Positions 23,758-33,522 of a DNA stretch of 46,291 bases are shown here, piece by piece; the first letter of the stretch is position 1; every line of letters begins with the position of its first letter. The notes beneath the pieces were generated by a model that worked only from the letters and a program-made list of their open reading frames with translations, was not told the origin of the DNA and searched no databases. A program made the translations under genes and the position numbers. Origin of the DNA: Thermoplasmata archaeon (lineage in GTDB: Archaea; Thermoplasmatota; Poseidoniia; Poseidoniales; Thalassarchaeaceae); assembly GCA_002727675.1 (NCBI GenBank), contig PBXQ01000077.1, positions 1 to 46,291 of the forward strand. Direction: 5' to 3'.

Positions 23758-26313
23758 TTGGGTGTAGAATTGGCTGAGCACGGACATGGCATTTGCCCTC
23801 ATTGTGACCACCCACTTGAGGGTAGGGAAGCTGTTTGCCCTAAATGCGAAGGTGGTTTGTATGGAGTGCCTCCAAAGAAAGCTAACTTGAAGGATAAAGT
23901 GAAAGATGTAGCAACAAAAATAGAAAAAAGTGCCAAAAGCACTGCATCTAATGTAACTGAAATGAGTGGACAAACTGTACAGAAGGTTTCTCAATCAATT
24001 GGTGATCATGTTATTCCCGCTTGGTCTGCTGTTGCAAAAACTAGCGGAGAAATTGTTGAAAAGGTAATTGAAAAAACTTCTCTATCACCTAATAGTCATC
24101 CAGAAGACCATGATGCTCGTCCGGACATGGCTAGTAATACTCCAAATACTAGCAACGAACCCGACAGACCGATGGATATTGAATCCCTGATGGTCCAAGG
24201 GGAATTACTTGTTTCCGAAGGAAAAGAGCAGCAGGCATTGAAAGTATTCAATACAATCATTGCTGAAGACCCAAGTAATGCCATGGCATGGTTTAATCGA
24301 GGAGTAATTCATGAAATGTCTGGGTCAGAAGATGAGGCTGTCAAGTCATTTAGAGTTTGCATAGATATGGACCCAGACCATGGCCCTGCCGCAGCAAATC
24401 TTGCAGTATTACTTGATAGAATGGGTAATTCATCAGATGCTAGCAAATTTGCTAATATGGCATTGCGCTCCTTCCCTTCACATAGCAAACTAACAGAAAT
24501 TGCAGGTGGCCAAGTACCCTCAACCAATCAATTAGATCCTCAAACAGTAATCCAAACTACAACTGATACCAATCCAATTCAAACACAAAAGAGCGAACCA
24601 GTAACTCAACCAGAAACTCAACCATTACAAACCCCTCAAATTGTTAATGAACCAATTCACCAAGCCGTTGTTGAAGAAGAAATTGCGGACACAGTTGATA
24701 TTGATAGTGTCGTTGAAAATGCCTCAGATTTAATTAAACAACAAAAACCAGAAGATGCACTGGAACTGCTCCGTGATCTATTGCACGCCGAGGCATCAGA
24801 ACATCCCCGAGCTTGGCGTATTGCAGCAGCATCAATGGCACAATTATCTCTCTATGATAGTGCCATAGAGGCTTTTACTTATGCTTTAGATTTAGATAAT
24901 AGTGATGCTGCTTCATGGTATAACTTAGGTGCCCTTTATCGCCGAAGTGGAGAAGAAGAAAGCGCAGTTGCGTGTTATAATGCGGCATTAGGCCTTAAAC
25001 CAGAATACACAAAGGCATCTTCAGCATTAGCAGATATTCATACAAATAATGGAGATTTGACATCAGCAATAGATGCATGGAGATCTCTATTAACACATGA
25101 ACCAAAGCACGAAGGAGGAATTCGTTTTGCTGAAATTCTAGTTTCAATAGGAGAAGGCGAAGGTGAAGTCCTTGAAATGGCAACAGATATTCCAACCACA
25201 CTTCCTGAAGGTCCTACTTTGGCAAAAGAGGCACTACAATATATCCCGGAAAATGATTCACAAGAAGTTGTTACTTTACGTGCTAGAGCATATACTTTAT
25301 CCGGCTCATATCCTGAAGCTGTCAAAGCATGGCGATCATTAGTTGAAAATGATAGAGATAATCATCTTTTGTGGGAAGGTATGATGAAGACATTTATTGC
25401 TGCAGGTGACCAAAATACAGCAGAAAAATGTAGGCAGAAAATTTCAAGTTTAACTGGTGTCGTTTCTGAACCCGTTAATGATACTAAAGATGCACTAGCG
25501 GTCTTTGAAACTAACGAAGAACCTCAGGCTGAAGATATTTCAGAGGAGATATCAGAAGTAGAGAATACTATTGATGAGCCAATAAATGAAACGCAGGAGC
25601 AAACTGAAAGTAATCAATCAGATGACCCATGGGGCGACCCATGGGCTGAACAAGAAGTTCCTGGAGACATTGAGGAAATTGAAACTCCCAATCCAGTTGA
25701 AATTGCAGCTGCTGAAAATATTCTAGACCAAGCACCTATTGTGGAAAAAGCTCCAGAACCAGAACCATCGCCTGAAGTCGACTTGGCTAGTGCAGCATTA
25801 ATCGCTCAAACCCAGCAATCTAATTCTGAAGATTTAACAGGAACTGGCAAGACTGATAGTAATTCAATTGCTAATCAAGATGTGCAGTGGTACAATAAAG
25901 GATTGGCTTTATTGGCAGATGAAAAATATGAAGAAGCAATGTCTTGTTTTGATAGGGCATTGCCAACATTTGTTAATGATGATGAAATGATTGTTAGAAT
26001 CCTCAATGCTAGGGGTAATGCATTCTATTACCTAAAGAAATTCAGTGATTGTATTGAGGCTTATCATAAGGCAATGCAAGTTAACCCAAGTGGAGTTACT
26101 GGTTCTACATTATACAATATGGGCACCGCTTATGCAGAAGTTGAACGTTTTGAAGATGCAATAAAATGTTTTGAACAAGGAATGTCATCTAAGCGAGTAA
26201 ATCCTTTAACTGGAGAACATTCTAAGATGGCTAAAGAACAGATTAGAAGATGCAAAATTTTGTTAAAAGAGCAACAAAAGAAACTAAAGCGATTTGCCAA
26301 GTTACAATCTTAG
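23758..26313 (+). CDS. Large zinc-ribbon plus TPR-repeat protein
   Basis: A protein of 851 aa. A zinc ribbon at the N-terminus (CPHC at 13-16, CPKC at 27-30) is followed by an amphipathic Lys/Ala/Ser-rich helix reminiscent of apolipoprotein or LEA segments. Three blocks of tetratricopeptide repeats come next (e.g. NAMAWFNRGVIHEMSGSEDE, ASWYNLGALYRRSGEEESA, VQWYNKGLALLADEKYEEAM). These are separated by long acidic, Pro/Gln-rich linkers. There is no membrane segment or signal peptide, so it is cytoplasmic. TPRs act as protein-docking scaffolds; partners are unknown. The start is TTG 23758 or TTG 23770. Several other proteins in this window share a CxxC-ribbon plus acidic-linker build. Confidence 0.82.
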   Translation: MGVELAEHGHGICPHCDHPLEGREAVCPKCEGGLYGVPPKKANLKDKVKDVATKIEKSAKSTASNVTEMSGQTVQKVSQSIGDHVIPAWSAVAKTSGEIVEKVIEKTSLSPNSHPEDHDARPDMASNTPNTSNEPDRPMDIESLMVQGELLVSEGKEQQALKVFNTIIAEDPSNAMAWFNRGVIHEMSGSEDEAVKSFRVCIDMDPDHGPAAANLAVLLDRMGNSSDASKFANMALRSFPSHSKLTEIAGGQVPSTNQLDPQTVIQTTTDTNPIQTQKSEPVTQPETQPLQTPQIVNEPIHQAVVEEEIADTVDIDSVVENASDLIKQQKPEDALELLRDLLHAEASEHPRAWRIAAASMAQLSLYDSAIEAFTYALDLDNSDAASWYNLGALYRRSGEEESAVACYNAALGLKPEYTKASSALADIHTNNGDLTSAIDAWRSLLTHEPKHEGGIRFAEILVSIGEGEGEVLEMATDIPTTLPEGPTLAKEALQYIPENDSQEVVTLRARAYTLSGSYPEAVKAWRSLVENDRDNHLLWEGMMKTFIAAGDQNTAEKCRQKISSLTGVVSEPVNDTKDALAVFETNEEPQAEDISEEISEVENTIDEPINETQEQTESNQSDDPWGDPWAEQEVPGDIEEIETPNPVEIAAAENILDQAPIVEKAPEPEPSPEVDLASAALIAQTQQSNSEDLTGTGKTDSNSIANQDVQWYNKGLALLADEKYEEAMSCFDRALPTFVNDDEMIVRILNARGNAFYYLKKFSDCIEAYHKAMQVNPSGVTGSTLYNMGTAYAEVERFEDAIKCFEQGMSSKRVNPLTGEHSKMAKEQIRRCKILLKEQQKKLKRFAKLQS

Positions 26314-26330: not shown

Positions 26331-28598
26331 TTATTGGGGCTTAACACTGACTTCTATCCACTTCGAAGTCGGCGTGTTACTACCCTTGGCTACTGATTCC
26401 AATGGAACCAAAACATTAGCTTCAGGGAAATATGCTGCTAAATTACCTCTTGGAATTTCATAAGGGACGACCTTCCAATTATCAGATACGATCTTTCTTC
26501 CCATGAAATGGCTTGTAATTTGTACTTCATCTTTTTCATTAATTGCTAAATCGTCCATATCTAATCTATTCATCATTACTATCCTTCTAGAATTATAAAT
26601 ACCCCTATATCTATCATCCATTCCATAAATTGTGGTATTATACTGATCATGACTCCTAATTGTCATTAAGATAAACCTATTTTCCTTTATGGAACGGATT
26701 GGTATTGAATTAGAGTGAAAAATCGCTTTACTTGAAGGCGTATCCCATGTTGGACCGTCCCTTGGACCATTCGGTAAATAGAATCCCCCATTTTGACGTA
26801 CACGATCATTATAATTGGAAAAAATTGGTAACACTGATTCGATTAAATCACGAATTTTGTCATAATCTTTTGACATTTCGTCCCATTTAAATGGATCTGA
26901 ACCAGCAATACCATAGCCAATCCCGGATACGATTCCAACTTCGCTCAATAGCGATGTTGAAGCAGGTTCTAGATTTCCATTAGATGAATGAACTACCCCC
27001 ATTGAATTTTCTACCGTCACAAATCCTGATTGGTCAAATTCTGTCCTACCTAAGCAGGGAAGTATTAGAGCCTGTTTCCCTGTAACTAAGTGACTTCTGT
27101 TTAATTTAGTCGAAATTTGAACAGTTAAGTCAATTTTTCGTATTGAGTTGGCAACCTCTTCTGTGTCAGACATCGCTGACAAAATATTACCCCCAAGAGC
27201 CATAAAAAGCCGAACTTTGTCATTTCTAGATGCTTGTATAAATTCAACAGAATCAAATCCAGAATCCCTAGGCATAGTAATTCCAGTTTCTCTTTCACAT
27301 GCATCCAAAAATGAAGAGGGAGGATTATGATTTATTCCAACTGTCCTATCACCTTGAACATTAGAGTGCCCTCTAACAGGGCACGCACCAGCACCAGGTC
27401 TGCCAAAATGTCCACCCATTAATAGTAAATTTGTTATCTCCTGAATAGTTGCAACTGCATTTTCATGCTGAGTAACCCCCATAGCCCAACAAATTATCAT
27501 ATTATTTGCATTTATTACTGAATTACCAATCTCAATTATGTGCTCCTTTTCTATACCAGATTGTTTGGTAATATCTTCCCATTTAACTGATGAAATGTGT
27601 TCAACCCAATCATCAAATCCTTCCGTATGTTCTTCAACAAATGAATGATTTACACCATCATTATCTAAAACAACTTTTGCAATCCCTTGTAATAGAGCCT
27701 GATCACCACCTATTCTAACTGGAAAATGAGCGTCGGCAATAGGCGTACCTCTGCCCAATAACCTGATGATTTCCTGAGGATGTTTAAAACGGTTTAAACC
27801 AGATTCTAGCAACGGATTAATGCTAATTACAGAACCACCATTACGTTTTGTGTTAGCTAATGCTGACAGCATCCTAGGATGATTTGTACCTGGGTTTTGA
27901 CCAATTACAATTACTAAATCAGCCTTATCAAAACAATCAAGAGTTACTGTACCTTTACCTATTCCAATTGAAGAAGTTAGTCCAACTCCACTTGATTCGT
28001 GACACATATTACTGCAATCAGGTAAATTATTCGTACCAATTTGTCTTGCTAATGTCCCCCAAAGAAATGCAGATTCATTAGACGCCCTTCCTGAAGTATA
28101 GAATACTGCTTCATTAGGATCATTCAAATTCATTACTGATTCAGCAATCATATCAAATGCATCATTCCATGAAATCTCCTCATAAAAATTAGAATCTGAA
28201 CGAAGAACCATTGGGCTGGTTAATCTACCTAATTTATCCAACTCCATGTCTGAAAAATTTGACCATTCCTGAACGCTTTTTGATGACAACAGCGATGGAG
28301 TCAATCGTTTTTTAGTTGCTTCAGTTGCAAATGCCTTCGCACCGTTTTCACAGAATTCAAAACTTGAACGATGGCCATCTGGATCTGGCCAAGCACAACC
28401 AGGGCAATCATAACCATCAAATTTGTTGACAGACCTCATTGTCTTCATAGTTCTAATTAATCCAGCTTCCGAAATACCAATTGAAAATGATTTTCTAACC
28501 CCTGTAATACCCGCAGCGACCTGCTTTGGCTTACCAATTTTTATCTTCCCTTCTTTTTTGGGGGATTGGGCTTTTACATCTCTACGAATATTCAACAC
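26331..28598 (-). CDS. Molybdopterin oxidoreductase, FdhF/YdeP family
   Basis: A protein of 755 aa. After a basic leader of ~60 residues comes YDCPGCAWPDPDG and FEFCENGAKAFATEATKKR, the distinctive N-terminus of the YdeP branch of formate-dehydrogenase-like enzymes. The molybdenum ligand is probably the Cys in NMCHESSGVGL. Cofactor-binding stretches include VIVIGQNPGTNHPRML and GAGACPVRGHSNVQGDRTVG, and the C-terminal MopB domain begins near RFILMTIRSHDQYN. The substrate of this branch is not established; formate oxidation should not be assumed. The GTG start at 28598 or TTG at 28595 is uncertain. FdhD is encoded just upstream on the same strand. Confidence 0.9.
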   Translation of the reverse strand: MLNIRRDVKAQSPKKEGKIKIGKPKQVAAGITGVRKSFSIGISEAGLIRTMKTMRSVNKFDGYDCPGCAWPDPDGHRSSFEFCENGAKAFATEATKKRLTPSLLSSKSVQEWSNFSDMELDKLGRLTSPMVLRSDSNFYEEISWNDAFDMIAESVMNLNDPNEAVFYTSGRASNESAFLWGTLARQIGTNNLPDCSNMCHESSGVGLTSSIGIGKGTVTLDCFDKADLVIVIGQNPGTNHPRMLSALANTKRNGGSVISINPLLESGLNRFKHPQEIIRLLGRGTPIADAHFPVRIGGDQALLQGIAKVVLDNDGVNHSFVEEHTEGFDDWVEHISSVKWEDITKQSGIEKEHIIEIGNSVINANNMIICWAMGVTQHENAVATIQEITNLLLMGGHFGRPGAGACPVRGHSNVQGDRTVGINHNPPSSFLDACERETGITMPRDSGFDSVEFIQASRNDKVRLFMALGGNILSAMSDTEEVANSIRKIDLTVQISTKLNRSHLVTGKQALILPCLGRTEFDQSGFVTVENSMGVVHSSNGNLEPASTSLLSEVGIVSGIGYGIAGSDPFKWDEMSKDYDKIRDLIESVLPIFSNYNDRVRQNGGFYLPNGPRDGPTWDTPSSKAIFHSNSIPIRSIKENRFILMTIRSHDQYNTTIYGMDDRYRGIYNSRRIVMMNRLDMDDLAINEKDEVQITSHFMGRKIVSDNWKVVPYEIPRGNLAAYFPEANVLVPLESVAKGSNTPTSKWIEVSVKPQ

Positions 28599-28670: not shown

Positions 28671-29474
28671 TCACAGTATTCTCCATGCACCACAGTAAAC
28701 ATTGAATTTTTCCTCTTTAAGAAAACCAATCAATGTAATCCCTGTACTTCGTGCAGCATCTACTGCCATAGTAGTAGGTGCACCCAAACCCACCACAACA
28801 GGTAATCCACCATATGCTGCCTTTTGAATAAGTTCGTAACCTATTCTACCGGTTAACATTAATACTTGATATTCTGCAGGTAAATCACCAGATTTTAGCC
28901 GAGAACCAATTAATTTATCCAATGCATTATGCCTACCAACGTCCTCCTTTATCGCCATTAAATTCGAGTTTTGATCATAAAGTGCTGCAGCATGTAAACC
29001 TCCTGTATCCTCAAAATTTCGTTGTGCAGGTTTCATAATTCTTGGTAAGTTAATCAATAATTTAGGATCCAACCATTTTTCATCAGAAATATTCAATCTA
29101 TCAGGAATGGCATAATTTTCTAACTCCTCAGTACCACAAATTCCACAACTAGAATTTATTGTAAATTTACGAGAAGGTAAATCAGATATTTTTTTGTTTG
29201 AACTATTTAATTCAACCAAAACCTTGCCTTCAAAGTACTTTATTGAATGGATATCATCCATAGATTTAATTACAGATTCACCCAATAAGAAACCTATGGC
29301 TAAATCACCATCATCACCAGGTGTTCGCATTATTATTCCCAAACTTTGTTCAACACCAGAAATGGACACCGATATTTCGATAGGAGATTCATTGGCAACT
29401 GAATCCTTCCTTGAATGCAATTCACCATTTTCCCAAATATGAATAGGTTTGCTAATGGTTGGCTCTCCCCCCAT
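28671..29474 (-). CDS. fdhD: Formate dehydrogenase accessory sulfurtransferase FdhD
   Basis: FdhD passes sulfur from a cysteine desulfurase to the molybdenum cofactor and is required for active FdhF-type enzymes. The 267 aa contain the active-site CxxC in SSCGICGTEE (Cys 110 and 113), TGGLHAAALYD, KEDVGRHNALDKLIG (cofactor-binding loop) and LMLTGRIGYELIQKAAYGG. It precedes the YdeP-like enzyme by about 70 bases on the same strand, which fits a role in maturing it. It diverges from the TrmB-V4R regulator over 91 bases. Confidence 0.95.
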   Translation of the reverse strand: MGGEPTISKPIHIWENGELHSRKDSVANESPIEISVSISGVEQSLGIIMRTPGDDGDLAIGFLLGESVIKSMDDIHSIKYFEGKVLVELNSSNKKISDLPSRKFTINSSCGICGTEELENYAIPDRLNISDEKWLDPKLLINLPRIMKPAQRNFEDTGGLHAAALYDQNSNLMAIKEDVGRHNALDKLIGSRLKSGDLPAEYQVLMLTGRIGYELIQKAAYGGLPVVVGLGAPTTMAVDAARSTGITLIGFLKEEKFNVYCGAWRIL

Positions 29475-29528
29475 AAAATCATGTCACACTACACTTAACT
29501 TAATCCTTCTTAACAAGAATACAATACA

Positions 29529-29540
29529 TCAATTAATTGA
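29529..29540. promoter_or_regulatory. Palindrome TCAATTAATTGA in the fdhD/regulator divergent region
   Basis: This is a perfect 12-bp palindrome, 26 bases before the regulator ATG and 55 bases before the fdhD start. The position suits an operator read by the adjacent HTH protein. AT-rich palindromes arise by chance easily in DNA of this composition, so confidence is moderate. Confidence 0.4.
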
Positions 29541-29565
29541 ATAATGTGTTCATATCCCGAGGTCT

Positions 29566-30942
29566 ATGGAAGAAGGTGAGGCGACCCTAAGTGAAAGGCT
29601 CACTGATATAGGATTAGATGAGAAAGAAGCACGTGTTCTAATACTACTTTCTACATCTGAACCTCTGAAGGCTAGTGAAGTAGGGCGCACCGTTGGAATA
29701 AGCAGAATGGATTCCTATAACACATTGAAGAGACTTCAAGAAAGAGGTTTGGTATTATCTACCTTAGATAAGCCGATGAGGTTTACTGGTTTATCTATTC
29801 AAGAAATATTCCAGCAATTAATTAATCATGAAGAACAAGAGTTACGACGAATTAAATTTCACTTAGATGAATTGAAGAAAGGAAAAATAGGACGTTTCAA
29901 TTCCACGAATGTAGCATCTAAAGAACCCCTTTTTACTGTAGTCAAAGAACGTAGTTATATTCAAGCTGCAATGGAGAGGGTAATTTCAGACTCAGAAGTT
30001 GATGCATGGATATTGCTAGGAAAATTTGGCATCCTTCATTTAGTAAAATCAGGCGCTCTAAACGCGTTAAATGAGGCTGCCAATAGAGGAGTTAAAATCC
30101 GCGTACTCGCCACACTTGAAAATAATACATTGAAATTTTATGACAAATTAGATCAACGAATTGAAATAAGACATTCAGATTCTGTATCAATGAATGGATG
30201 TATAATAGATGGCGAGGTTGCGGTACAAAATGTATCTATGGAAAATAACCCTGTAGGCCGAGGTAAAGATGATGCCGCATTAGTAATTGAGGCACCTACC
30301 TTCCTAACTACACAAACTGAGTTAATTGATGAGACTTGGAAAAATGCCACTCCCCTAACAACTGCAAAATCTTTAATCGCAAAAGGTGAAAATACTAAAC
30401 CACTTAGTATAAATTTAGGTACCGGTTCATTTTATCGTCGTTTTAAGGAAATAATTGCAAATAATATTTCTGATCAACATCCAGAAAATCAACAATGGAC
30501 GAATGCCATACTGAGAAATAATCAAGGCACGGTTGGAGACCAACCACATTTACCTCAATTCGAGATGTTAGGATTAGATATTTCAGATATCATGAGAATA
30601 ATAGGTAAAAGAATTGGAGAAGAAATAACAAATGAACTAGAACAAATAACTGATAATGATTCAGAATTTTGGCAGGCTTTAACTCAGGAATGGAGTGAAA
30701 TGGGGATGGGGCGCATGGAAGTAATTGGAGAACCTCTAATTTCTATCAAAGTACACGATGCTGGAGCATGTGGGAAAGCACCACAATTTGGCAGCCCATT
30801 CTGTCATTTAGATGAAGGTATTTTAGAGGGAATTATAGAGACTAGGCTGGGAATTTCAACTATTGCTGTTGAAAGAAAGTGTACAGGAGAAGGTGTGAAG
30901 AATTGCTATTTCCAGATATTATTCGATGAAATCAATACATGA
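29566..30942 (+). CDS. TrmB-type transcriptional regulator with C-terminal V4R-like sensor domain
   Basis: A protein of 458 aa. Residues ~5-75 are a TrmB winged helix (LTDIGLDEKEARVLILLSTS, VGRTVGISRMDSYNTLKRLQ). A phospholipase-D-like middle domain follows (ERSYIQAAMERVISDSEVDA, NRGVKIRVLATLE, MNGCIIDGEVAVQNV). After a linker, the last ~110 residues look like a V4R domain: FCHLDEGILEGIIETRLG, then AVERKCTGEGVKNCYFQIL, the family's usual E-x-x-C...G-x-x-x-C-x-F ending. V4R domains bind small ligands or metals through Cys and His. Placement suggests control of fdhD and the molybdoenzyme, which is inference. Confidence 0.85.
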   Translation: MEEGEATLSERLTDIGLDEKEARVLILLSTSEPLKASEVGRTVGISRMDSYNTLKRLQERGLVLSTLDKPMRFTGLSIQEIFQQLINHEEQELRRIKFHLDELKKGKIGRFNSTNVASKEPLFTVVKERSYIQAAMERVISDSEVDAWILLGKFGILHLVKSGALNALNEAANRGVKIRVLATLENNTLKFYDKLDQRIEIRHSDSVSMNGCIIDGEVAVQNVSMENNPVGRGKDDAALVIEAPTFLTTQTELIDETWKNATPLTTAKSLIAKGENTKPLSINLGTGSFYRRFKEIIANNISDQHPENQQWTNAILRNNQGTVGDQPHLPQFEMLGLDISDIMRIIGKRIGEEITNELEQITDNDSEFWQALTQEWSEMGMGRMEVIGEPLISIKVHDAGACGKAPQFGSPFCHLDEGILEGIIETRLGISTIAVERKCTGEGVKNCYFQILFDEINT

Positions 30943-30972: not shown

Positions 30973-31368
30973 ATGGACTGTCCTTCTGATGCCGGCGCCA
31001 TTTCAGATTTAATCGGCAATGACGATGATTATGACATTGTACCAATTAATGTCACACTTACTGAAATTGCTTCTAAATCATTACGTGAATTATTCAATTA
31101 TGAGCCAGGAGATGTTGTATTAAAAATCGCAGTTCACCGTGGTGGATGCTCAGGTAACTTATATGATATGCAAATTATCGATAGACCTGATCCCGAGGGA
31201 CATCAATTCGATGATGTAAATGGTATTGATATATGCGTATCTGATTACGATAGCAGTTTATTATCTGGAATAGTCATTGATTTCCAAGATAGTTTAATGG
31301 GCGGTGGATTCAAAATTAATAACCCAAATGCTGACAAAGCTTGTAGTTGCGGGAAAAGTTTTGGATGA
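30973..31368 (+). CDS. A-type iron-sulfur carrier protein (IscA/ErpA/SufA family)
   Basis: It holds Fe-S clusters and passes them to client apo-enzymes. The three cluster cysteines are present: RGGCSGNLYDM (C59) and the C-terminal ACSCGKSFG (C124, C126). They follow the family core GGGFKINNPNADKACSC. The first ~25 residues (DCPSDAGAISDLIGNDDDYD) are an extra acidic leader with an additional Cys. At 131 aa it is slightly longer than the usual 107-120. It follows the regulator by 30 bases in the same direction and may help supply the molybdoenzyme cluster. Confidence 0.92.
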   Translation: MDCPSDAGAISDLIGNDDDYDIVPINVTLTEIASKSLRELFNYEPGDVVLKIAVHRGGCSGNLYDMQIIDRPDPEGHQFDDVNGIDICVSDYDSSLLSGIVIDFQDSLMGGGFKINNPNADKACSCGKSFG

Positions 31369-32645: not shown

Positions 32646-32969
32646 CTAAGAAATATCAATTCTACCTATGATTTGAGAAATTGCGAGGTGGCCAAACGCA
32701 TGGCTATCAGTTGATGCAATTGGGTCAGGATTATCACCTGTAATGAATACAGTATTATCTGAATTAATCGCAGAAATTCTCTTAATTAACTTGACTTTAG
32801 GTTTTAGTGGATGTTGACACATAATTATATCACCAACAACAGGGATATTGTTTGAATAATATTCATGGTCACAAATAACAACTTGACCATCAACTATTGT
32901 AGGCCACATGCTACCCCCTTTAACAAGAACATTGGTACAATTTGGCCTTTGAGCCATGTAATCACTCAA
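32646..32969 (-). CDS. sodX: Signal-peptidase-like NiSOD maturation protease
   Basis: A small soluble S26-type serine protease of 107 aa without a membrane anchor. The Ser motif is VKGGSMWPTIVDGQVV (S20) and the Lys partner is VKLIKRIS (K60 or K63), followed by FITGDNPDPIASTDSHAFG, the S26 C-terminal box. Family members paired with sodN cleave the NiSOD propeptide to expose the N-terminal His that binds nickel. It overlaps the sodN stop by four bases (ATGA), the expected sodN-sodX arrangement. Confidence 0.88.
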   Translation of the reverse strand: MSDYMAQRPNCTNVLVKGGSMWPTIVDGQVVICDHEYYSNNIPVVGDIIMCQHPLKPKVKLIKRISAINSDNTVFITGDNPDPIASTDSHAFGHLAISQIIGRIDIS

Positions 32970-33415
32970 CTAGCACGTACCCATGGAACATCACGTCCCT
33001 TTGCTGCCCAAAAGAGGTGGTGTATTGCTTCTATCGCATCCATTAATTCTTGAGCATGAACCGATGATACCTCAACCTTACATGCCGAACAAAGTTTTGC
33101 TGCCTCCCAAAAAATTGTATGCAAATTTGGATTATTTTCAAGATGTTGTGGTTTGAAAAAATCAGTCCATAGGACTAACAATTCATCCTTGCATTTTTGA
33201 GCTTCTTGTTCCTTGATTGCAGCATAACGGCTCATCGTATTAAGATAAGCAGACATTGCTTCAGAATTTCCAGTATCGGGGCATTCAAGAGCCAACATTT
33301 TGTTTGTCATAGATTGTACAGCTTCACCTGCAATCCTAGCACTAGCAGGGTCATAAACACCACAAGGTCCGTCACAATGTGCCTCGGCCACAATTTTCAA
33401 ATCATCAATATCCAT
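32966..33415 (-). CDS. sodN: Nickel superoxide dismutase
   Basis: It converts superoxide to oxygen and hydrogen peroxide at a Ni centre. The ORF track begins at 33490, but MDIDDLKIVAEA-HCDGPCGVYDPA from ATG 33415 matches a propeptide followed by the nickel hook HCxxPCxxY. Ligands would be His13, Cys14 and Cys18, with Tyr21 nearby; cleavage after Ala12 frees His. The 137-aa mature part is four-helical (QSMTNKMLALECPD, LNTMSRYAAIKEQEAQKCKD, AIEAIHHLFWAAKGRDVPW). Two extra Cys (LCSACKVE) lie in the C-terminal part. Its neighbour is the processing protease. Divergent from serA-like gene over 107 bases. Confidence 0.95.
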   Translation of the reverse strand: MDIDDLKIVAEAHCDGPCGVYDPASARIAGEAVQSMTNKMLALECPDTGNSEAMSAYLNTMSRYAAIKEQEAQKCKDELLVLWTDFFKPQHLENNPNLHTIFWEAAKLCSACKVEVSSVHAQELMDAIEAIHHLFWAAKGRDVPWVRAS

Positions 33416-33522
33416 TCTAATCACACGCATTCTAATAAGACATAGAATATCAAACTTCGCGCGATACACTCTTACATATTTCATACACAATCTTGATTGT
33501 TATCCTTGTGCTGCCACTGTCA

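Follow-up and report, generated by a model that had tools for sequence, protein, structure and literature searches.

The regulator locus and the architecture of REG-A

The window, i.e. the whole stretch of 46,291 nucleotides that we analysed, carries a regulator gene, REG-A, with these neighbouring genes and features:

26331..28598, minus strand: molybdoenzyme of the FdhF/YdeP family, exchangeable partner (TIGR01701, E 7e-253)
28671..29474, minus strand: fdhD, Mo-bisMGD sulfurtransferase/chaperone (TIGR00129, above cut-off)
29475..29565, no strand: divergent promoter region of 91 bp; within the genus CTTAATnCTTCnTT and TCAATTnnTTnAA are conserved blocks
29529..29540, no strand: perfect palindrome TCAATTAATTGA, within a conserved block, its symmetry not conserved
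29566..30942, plus strand: REG-A, regulator, ORF of 458 aa (TrmB wing, linker, PLD middle, V4R)
30766..30906, plus strand: four invariant V4R cysteines C402, C413, C439 and C447 (C-x10-C-x25-C-x7-C)
30973..31368, plus strand: iscA, A-type Fe-S carrier, 30 bp after REG-A (ligand cysteines C59, C124 and C126)

REG-A is at once a TrmB winged-helix protein (residues 12-74, PF01978, E 6.6e-10, 39.1 bits for a Pfam cut-off of 25.6) and a V4R protein (residues 393-451, PF02830, E 4.3e-10, 40 bits for a cut-off of 31). Its winged helix (12-74) is followed by a coiled linker, a PLD-fold middle (about 120-260) and an MsvR-type V4R domain (about 332-451). The middle matches the PLD-like Pfam profile under its cut-off, and structure comparison of the model confirms the PLD fold (PLD nuclease Nuc, E 1.5e-7); TrmBL2 and TrmB are also matched by fold, with E values of 1e-11 to 1e-14. 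The packing of the domains is uncertain, because the full-length AlphaFold model has a pTM of 0.40 (mean pLDDT 78.8). For the V4R part AlphaFold gave a pLDDT of 83.4 and a pTM of 0.80, and this model matches the folds of the V4R protein MJ1460 (2oso), MopR (TM 0.62), Bet3 and H-NOX; a single-sequence search of solved structures with REG-A returned nothing useful. Among curated models, residues 332-451 match MsvR best (NCBIfam NF053755, E 2.2e-23), and positions 119-236 only of that model are covered. This match scores 83.2 bits against an equivalog cut-off of 220 over the full length: REG-A is not MsvR by the equivalog test, yet its sensor is of the MsvR type.

An earlier note, made from the DNA letters, had read REG-A as a TrmB winged helix joined to a PLD-like middle and a Cys-containing V4R domain. 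Pfam and fold matches bear this out, the V4R that it placed in residues 340-458 being found above cut-off at 393-451. The gene order that it described is equally confirmed: by ORF positions and profile matches, fdhD and a YdeP-like oxidoreductase are encoded divergently to the regulator, and the gene after the regulator is that of an A-type Fe-S carrier. The oxidoreductase (26331-28598) scores 841 bits with TIGR01701 (cut-off 582), and 677 with the YdeP equivalog PRK09939 (cut-off 1473); the carrier scores 89.6 bits with TIGR00049 (cut-off 58.8) and has the C-x(n)-C-x-C ligands.

The cysteines of the V4R domain in groups A and B

The first Cys of REG-A is residue 212. C402, C413, C439 and C447 are found in 27/27 sequences of group A (20/20 aligned, to which L071 and L113-L118 add seven), while at the same columns the group B paralogues have Cys in 0, 0, 0 and 4 of 12. 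The spacing of the triad C413/C439/C447 (26/8) equals that of C206/C232/C240 in MaMsvR, in whose Ala variants DNA binding is altered or destabilised (PMC3729527). It is shared by bona fide MsvRs above the NF053755 cut-off (four of four cysteines in L105, three of four in L110), and the upstream Cys of C-x10-C also occurs in MsvR-like proteins, these two included.

The zinc cysteines of DmpR, C151/C177/C185, display the same 26/8 spacing (PMC7264223), and this zinc site is described as structural (PMC10715001). The V4R might then bind a hydrophobic ligand, for instance an aromatic one, like DmpR and MopR, with cysteines that hold a structural zinc only, which the fold match to MopR would also fit. 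However, the sequence affinity of the V4R is to MsvR and not to DmpR/XylR, catabolic genes are not adjacent to REG-A, and in group A residue 436, where the zinc site has its Glu, may be E, N, K, Q or V while the fourth Cys is invariant, so that we consider a small-molecule sensor of this kind unlikely.

In the tree, the group A sequences of family f2 and group B are each well supported; the grouping of the group A sequences of f1, the family of the window, is weaker (64/60). Since A and B are two clades, the retention of the cysteines and the linkage to iscA, discussed below, co-vary by essentially one event. No iscA was found near paralogue B within the stretches read. A peroxiredoxin gene directly precedes paralogue B in three of six loci (L051, L052 and L056), the six being those whose neighbourhoods were retrieved, counting the partly read L054; paralogue B thus keeps the redox theme while its V4R cysteines are lost. 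In these same three loci a GTP cyclohydrolase II gene adjoins the peroxiredoxin gene. A natural Cys-less paralogue offers a built-in control for the role of the V4R cysteines.

Farther away, L055, from a distant family, encodes a homologue with three of the four cysteines, divergent from iscA. The more distant TrmB-V4R proteins of L063, L064, L066, L067 and L070 differ in their Cys pattern, and iscA was not found near them, so the link to iscA is not general to all TrmB-V4R proteins; nor was iscA found near the MsvR-like loci L104-L112. One of the latter, L104 (4330-5073, in G003, from another family of the window's class), encodes an MsvR-like protein with all four cysteines and 183 bits for the cut-off of 220.

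Gene neighbours and the intergenic region

In 28/28 group A loci, from two families, the regulator gene is directly followed by a co-directional iscA, which is probably co-transcribed with REG-A. The order in f2 is TPR gene, regulator, iscA, ygfZ: a ygfZ/CAF17-like gene follows iscA in 18/18 assessable f2 loci and in G283. Its product carries the motif KGC[FY]xGQE and matches TIGR03317 with E 1e-9 to 1e-11 in f2 (below cut-off) and 1.3e-21 in G283 (above); YgfZ/IBA57 serves [4Fe-4S] proteins (PMC10002905). The presence of iscA does not depend on the regulator: the gene is found in 140/146 Poseidoniales, REG-A present or not, and therefore needs no such regulator. The gene of the long TPR-repeat protein (23758-26313 in the window) accompanies the regulator locus almost constantly in the two families; at its N terminus the protein has two CxxC motifs that resemble a zinc ribbon.

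The linkage to fdhD is variable. This gene is present in 130/146 Poseidoniales; it adjoins the regulator in 8 loci only, all of them from g1 or g11, one of which is the genus of the window. For the 20 f2 orthologues, which have iscA next to them, fdhD lies about 36 kb off (4 genomes) or is not found on the contig of the regulator, and 50 f1 genomes place fdhD and iscA side by side, divergently oriented, without this regulator between the two. The enzyme behind fdhD in the 8 loci is YdeP-like in three and an NAD-dependent formate dehydrogenase in five. The five, L002-L006, have parts of the latter upstream of fdhD instead of ydeP: L006, which was profiled, encodes an FdhA of 906 aa that exceeds the cut-off of TIGR01591, along with a fused NuoE-NuoF (625 aa), and L002, at a contig end, the fused NuoE-NuoF only. 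The pair ydeP-fdhD occurs in both families (L059, L060, L062). In a tree of ydeP (L125-L154) the copy of the window clusters with those from genus g5 (100/100), and the only other ydeP found in its genus, in G333, clusters with one from g3; ydeP seems to pass from one genus to another, into a slot next to fdhD that stays the same. The stable unit is thus regulator-iscA, and the fdhD slot can take different enzymes. As to other genes near the locus, a nickel superoxide dismutase is encoded at 32966-33490 in the window and also in L002, L004, L059, L060 and L071, and a putative Fe/Mn-type enzyme takes its place in L006 (11133-11732) and L037 (8237-8833).

These data bear on the idea that REG-A is a dedicated molybdoenzyme regulator, whose V4R would sense formate-dehydrogenase status, substrate or Mo in order to control fdhD and the enzyme, with iscA as an incidental neighbour. 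The divergent arrangement of fdhD and the regulator in all 8 loci of the two f1 genera, each with a formate-dehydrogenase-like enzyme (YdeP-like or NAD-dependent) behind fdhD, speaks for it; on the other hand, the 20 f2 orthologues keep iscA with no adjacent fdhD, and the fdhD/iscA pair does without the regulator in 50 f1 genomes. We find this explanation improbable, and on the f2 synteny together with the 50 regulator-free loci we rejected a dedicated partnership with fdhD as the core link. The earlier note had taken the regulator, fdhD and the enzyme for a self-contained regulated molybdoenzyme module. Such a core unit is not supported, as the regulator is apart from fdhD in most relatives (f2) and the enzyme is swapped. 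Of its further suggestion, a V4R that senses a ligand, metal or redox state for molybdoenzyme maturation, the putative sensing role is supported by the MsvR-type domain and its four invariant cysteines.

The intergenic region does contain the perfect palindrome noticed earlier, an exact match, and its conservation in relatives is what fails. With 20 perfect 12-bp palindromes in the window, about 0.04 are expected in the 91-bp gap. At the same position five congeners have TCAATTGGTTCA or a similar sequence, so that the block is kept with no dyad symmetry, and the other three genomic copies of TCAATTAATTGA all lie inside genes. On both counts we rejected TCAATTAATTGA as an operator; the palindrome is weak evidence at best. 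An operator conserved across families was not found, and the MsvR box (TTCGN7-9CGAA) is absent upstream of REG-A, its sole match in the window, at 26838, being inside ydeP.

A candidate sensor for iron-sulfur maturation and its known relatives

We propose, with moderate confidence, that REG-A is a local one-component redox or metal sensor for an Fe-S insertion operon. Its role would probably lie in the control of iron-sulfur maturation and not of a single molybdenum enzyme. The four V4R cysteines—a zinc-site or MsvR-type triad plus one—may bind a metal, or else alternate between thiol and disulfide forms, and the state of the V4R would be relayed by the PLD-fold middle and the coiled helix to the winged helices (TrmB) of a presumed dimer, which would bind the REG-iscA promoter, perhaps as a repressor. 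The occupancy of this site, and with it the output of iscA and, where present, of ygfZ, could then change on oxidation or when the metal is lost. Because the intergenic region also carries the fdhD promoter in two genera, that of the window included, REG-A would probably tune fdhD and the formate-dehydrogenase-like enzyme there as well. Gene order alone also fits a simple co-transcription of iscA with no regulation.

A bolder form of the proposal, which we hold to be doubtful, is that the four-Cys V4R binds an Fe-S cluster and that REG-A is an archaeal work-alike of IscR/SufR for iscA-ygfZ. If true, this chemistry would be distinct from that of the zinc/phenol sensors, and it would be a candidate chemistry for MsvR itself. 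Very improbable, finally, is a TrmB-like sensing of a carbohydrate or another metabolite by the PLD-fold middle, the V4R then serving for dimerisation: by fold there is a match to TrmB and to the sugar-binding domain of TrmB (3qph, 2f5t), but the effector-binding domain PF11495 is absent from REG-A up to E 1 in Pfam, sugar genes were not found in the REG-A neighbourhood and the V4R cysteines are strongly conserved.

The redox or metal reading of REG-A places an MsvR-type sensor domain on a TrmB scaffold, in ocean Poseidoniales, tied to Fe-S insertion genes. In a limited literature search we found no archaeal regulator of such kind described for Fe-S carrier genes; REG-A is a concrete and testable candidate.

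MsvR, for which redox control via V4R cysteines is a precedent (PMC3729527), is close to REG-A by its V4R sensor, by the C-x25-C-x7-C pattern of MaMsvR and by the Cys 11 residues upstream that is common to MsvR-like relatives. It differs in its DNA-binding half, which is of the ArsR type and not TrmB/PLD. REG-A moreover scores 83 bits against 220, has no upstream MsvR box, is linked to iscA/ygfZ and not to an oxidative-stress operon, and belongs to a non-methanogen, whereas MsvR is reported as exclusive to methanogens (PMC9426492). In OxsR of Haloferax volcanii a TrmB winged helix serves thiol/redox control, a precedent for thiol control by a regulator of the TrmB family (PMC9426492). OxsR, however, is a single-domain protein of 123 aa with functional Cys, while REG-A, with 458 aa, is not of this type and has its four conserved cysteines all in the V4R and none in the winged helix.

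With TrmB and TrmBL2, REG-A shares a winged helix above cut-off, a PLD-fold second domain and the overall fold; it differs by the added C-terminal V4R, and the sugar-effector domain of this family is the one not detected. With DmpR, MopR and PoxR it has in common the V4R fold and a Cys triad at the spacing of their structural zinc; these are sigma-54 AAA+ proteins with three Cys and a Glu, whereas REG-A has four invariant Cys. The folds of IscR and SufR are unrelated to that of REG-A, and the likeness here is that of a work-alike: a Cys-bearing regulator whose gene heads an Fe-S biogenesis operon.
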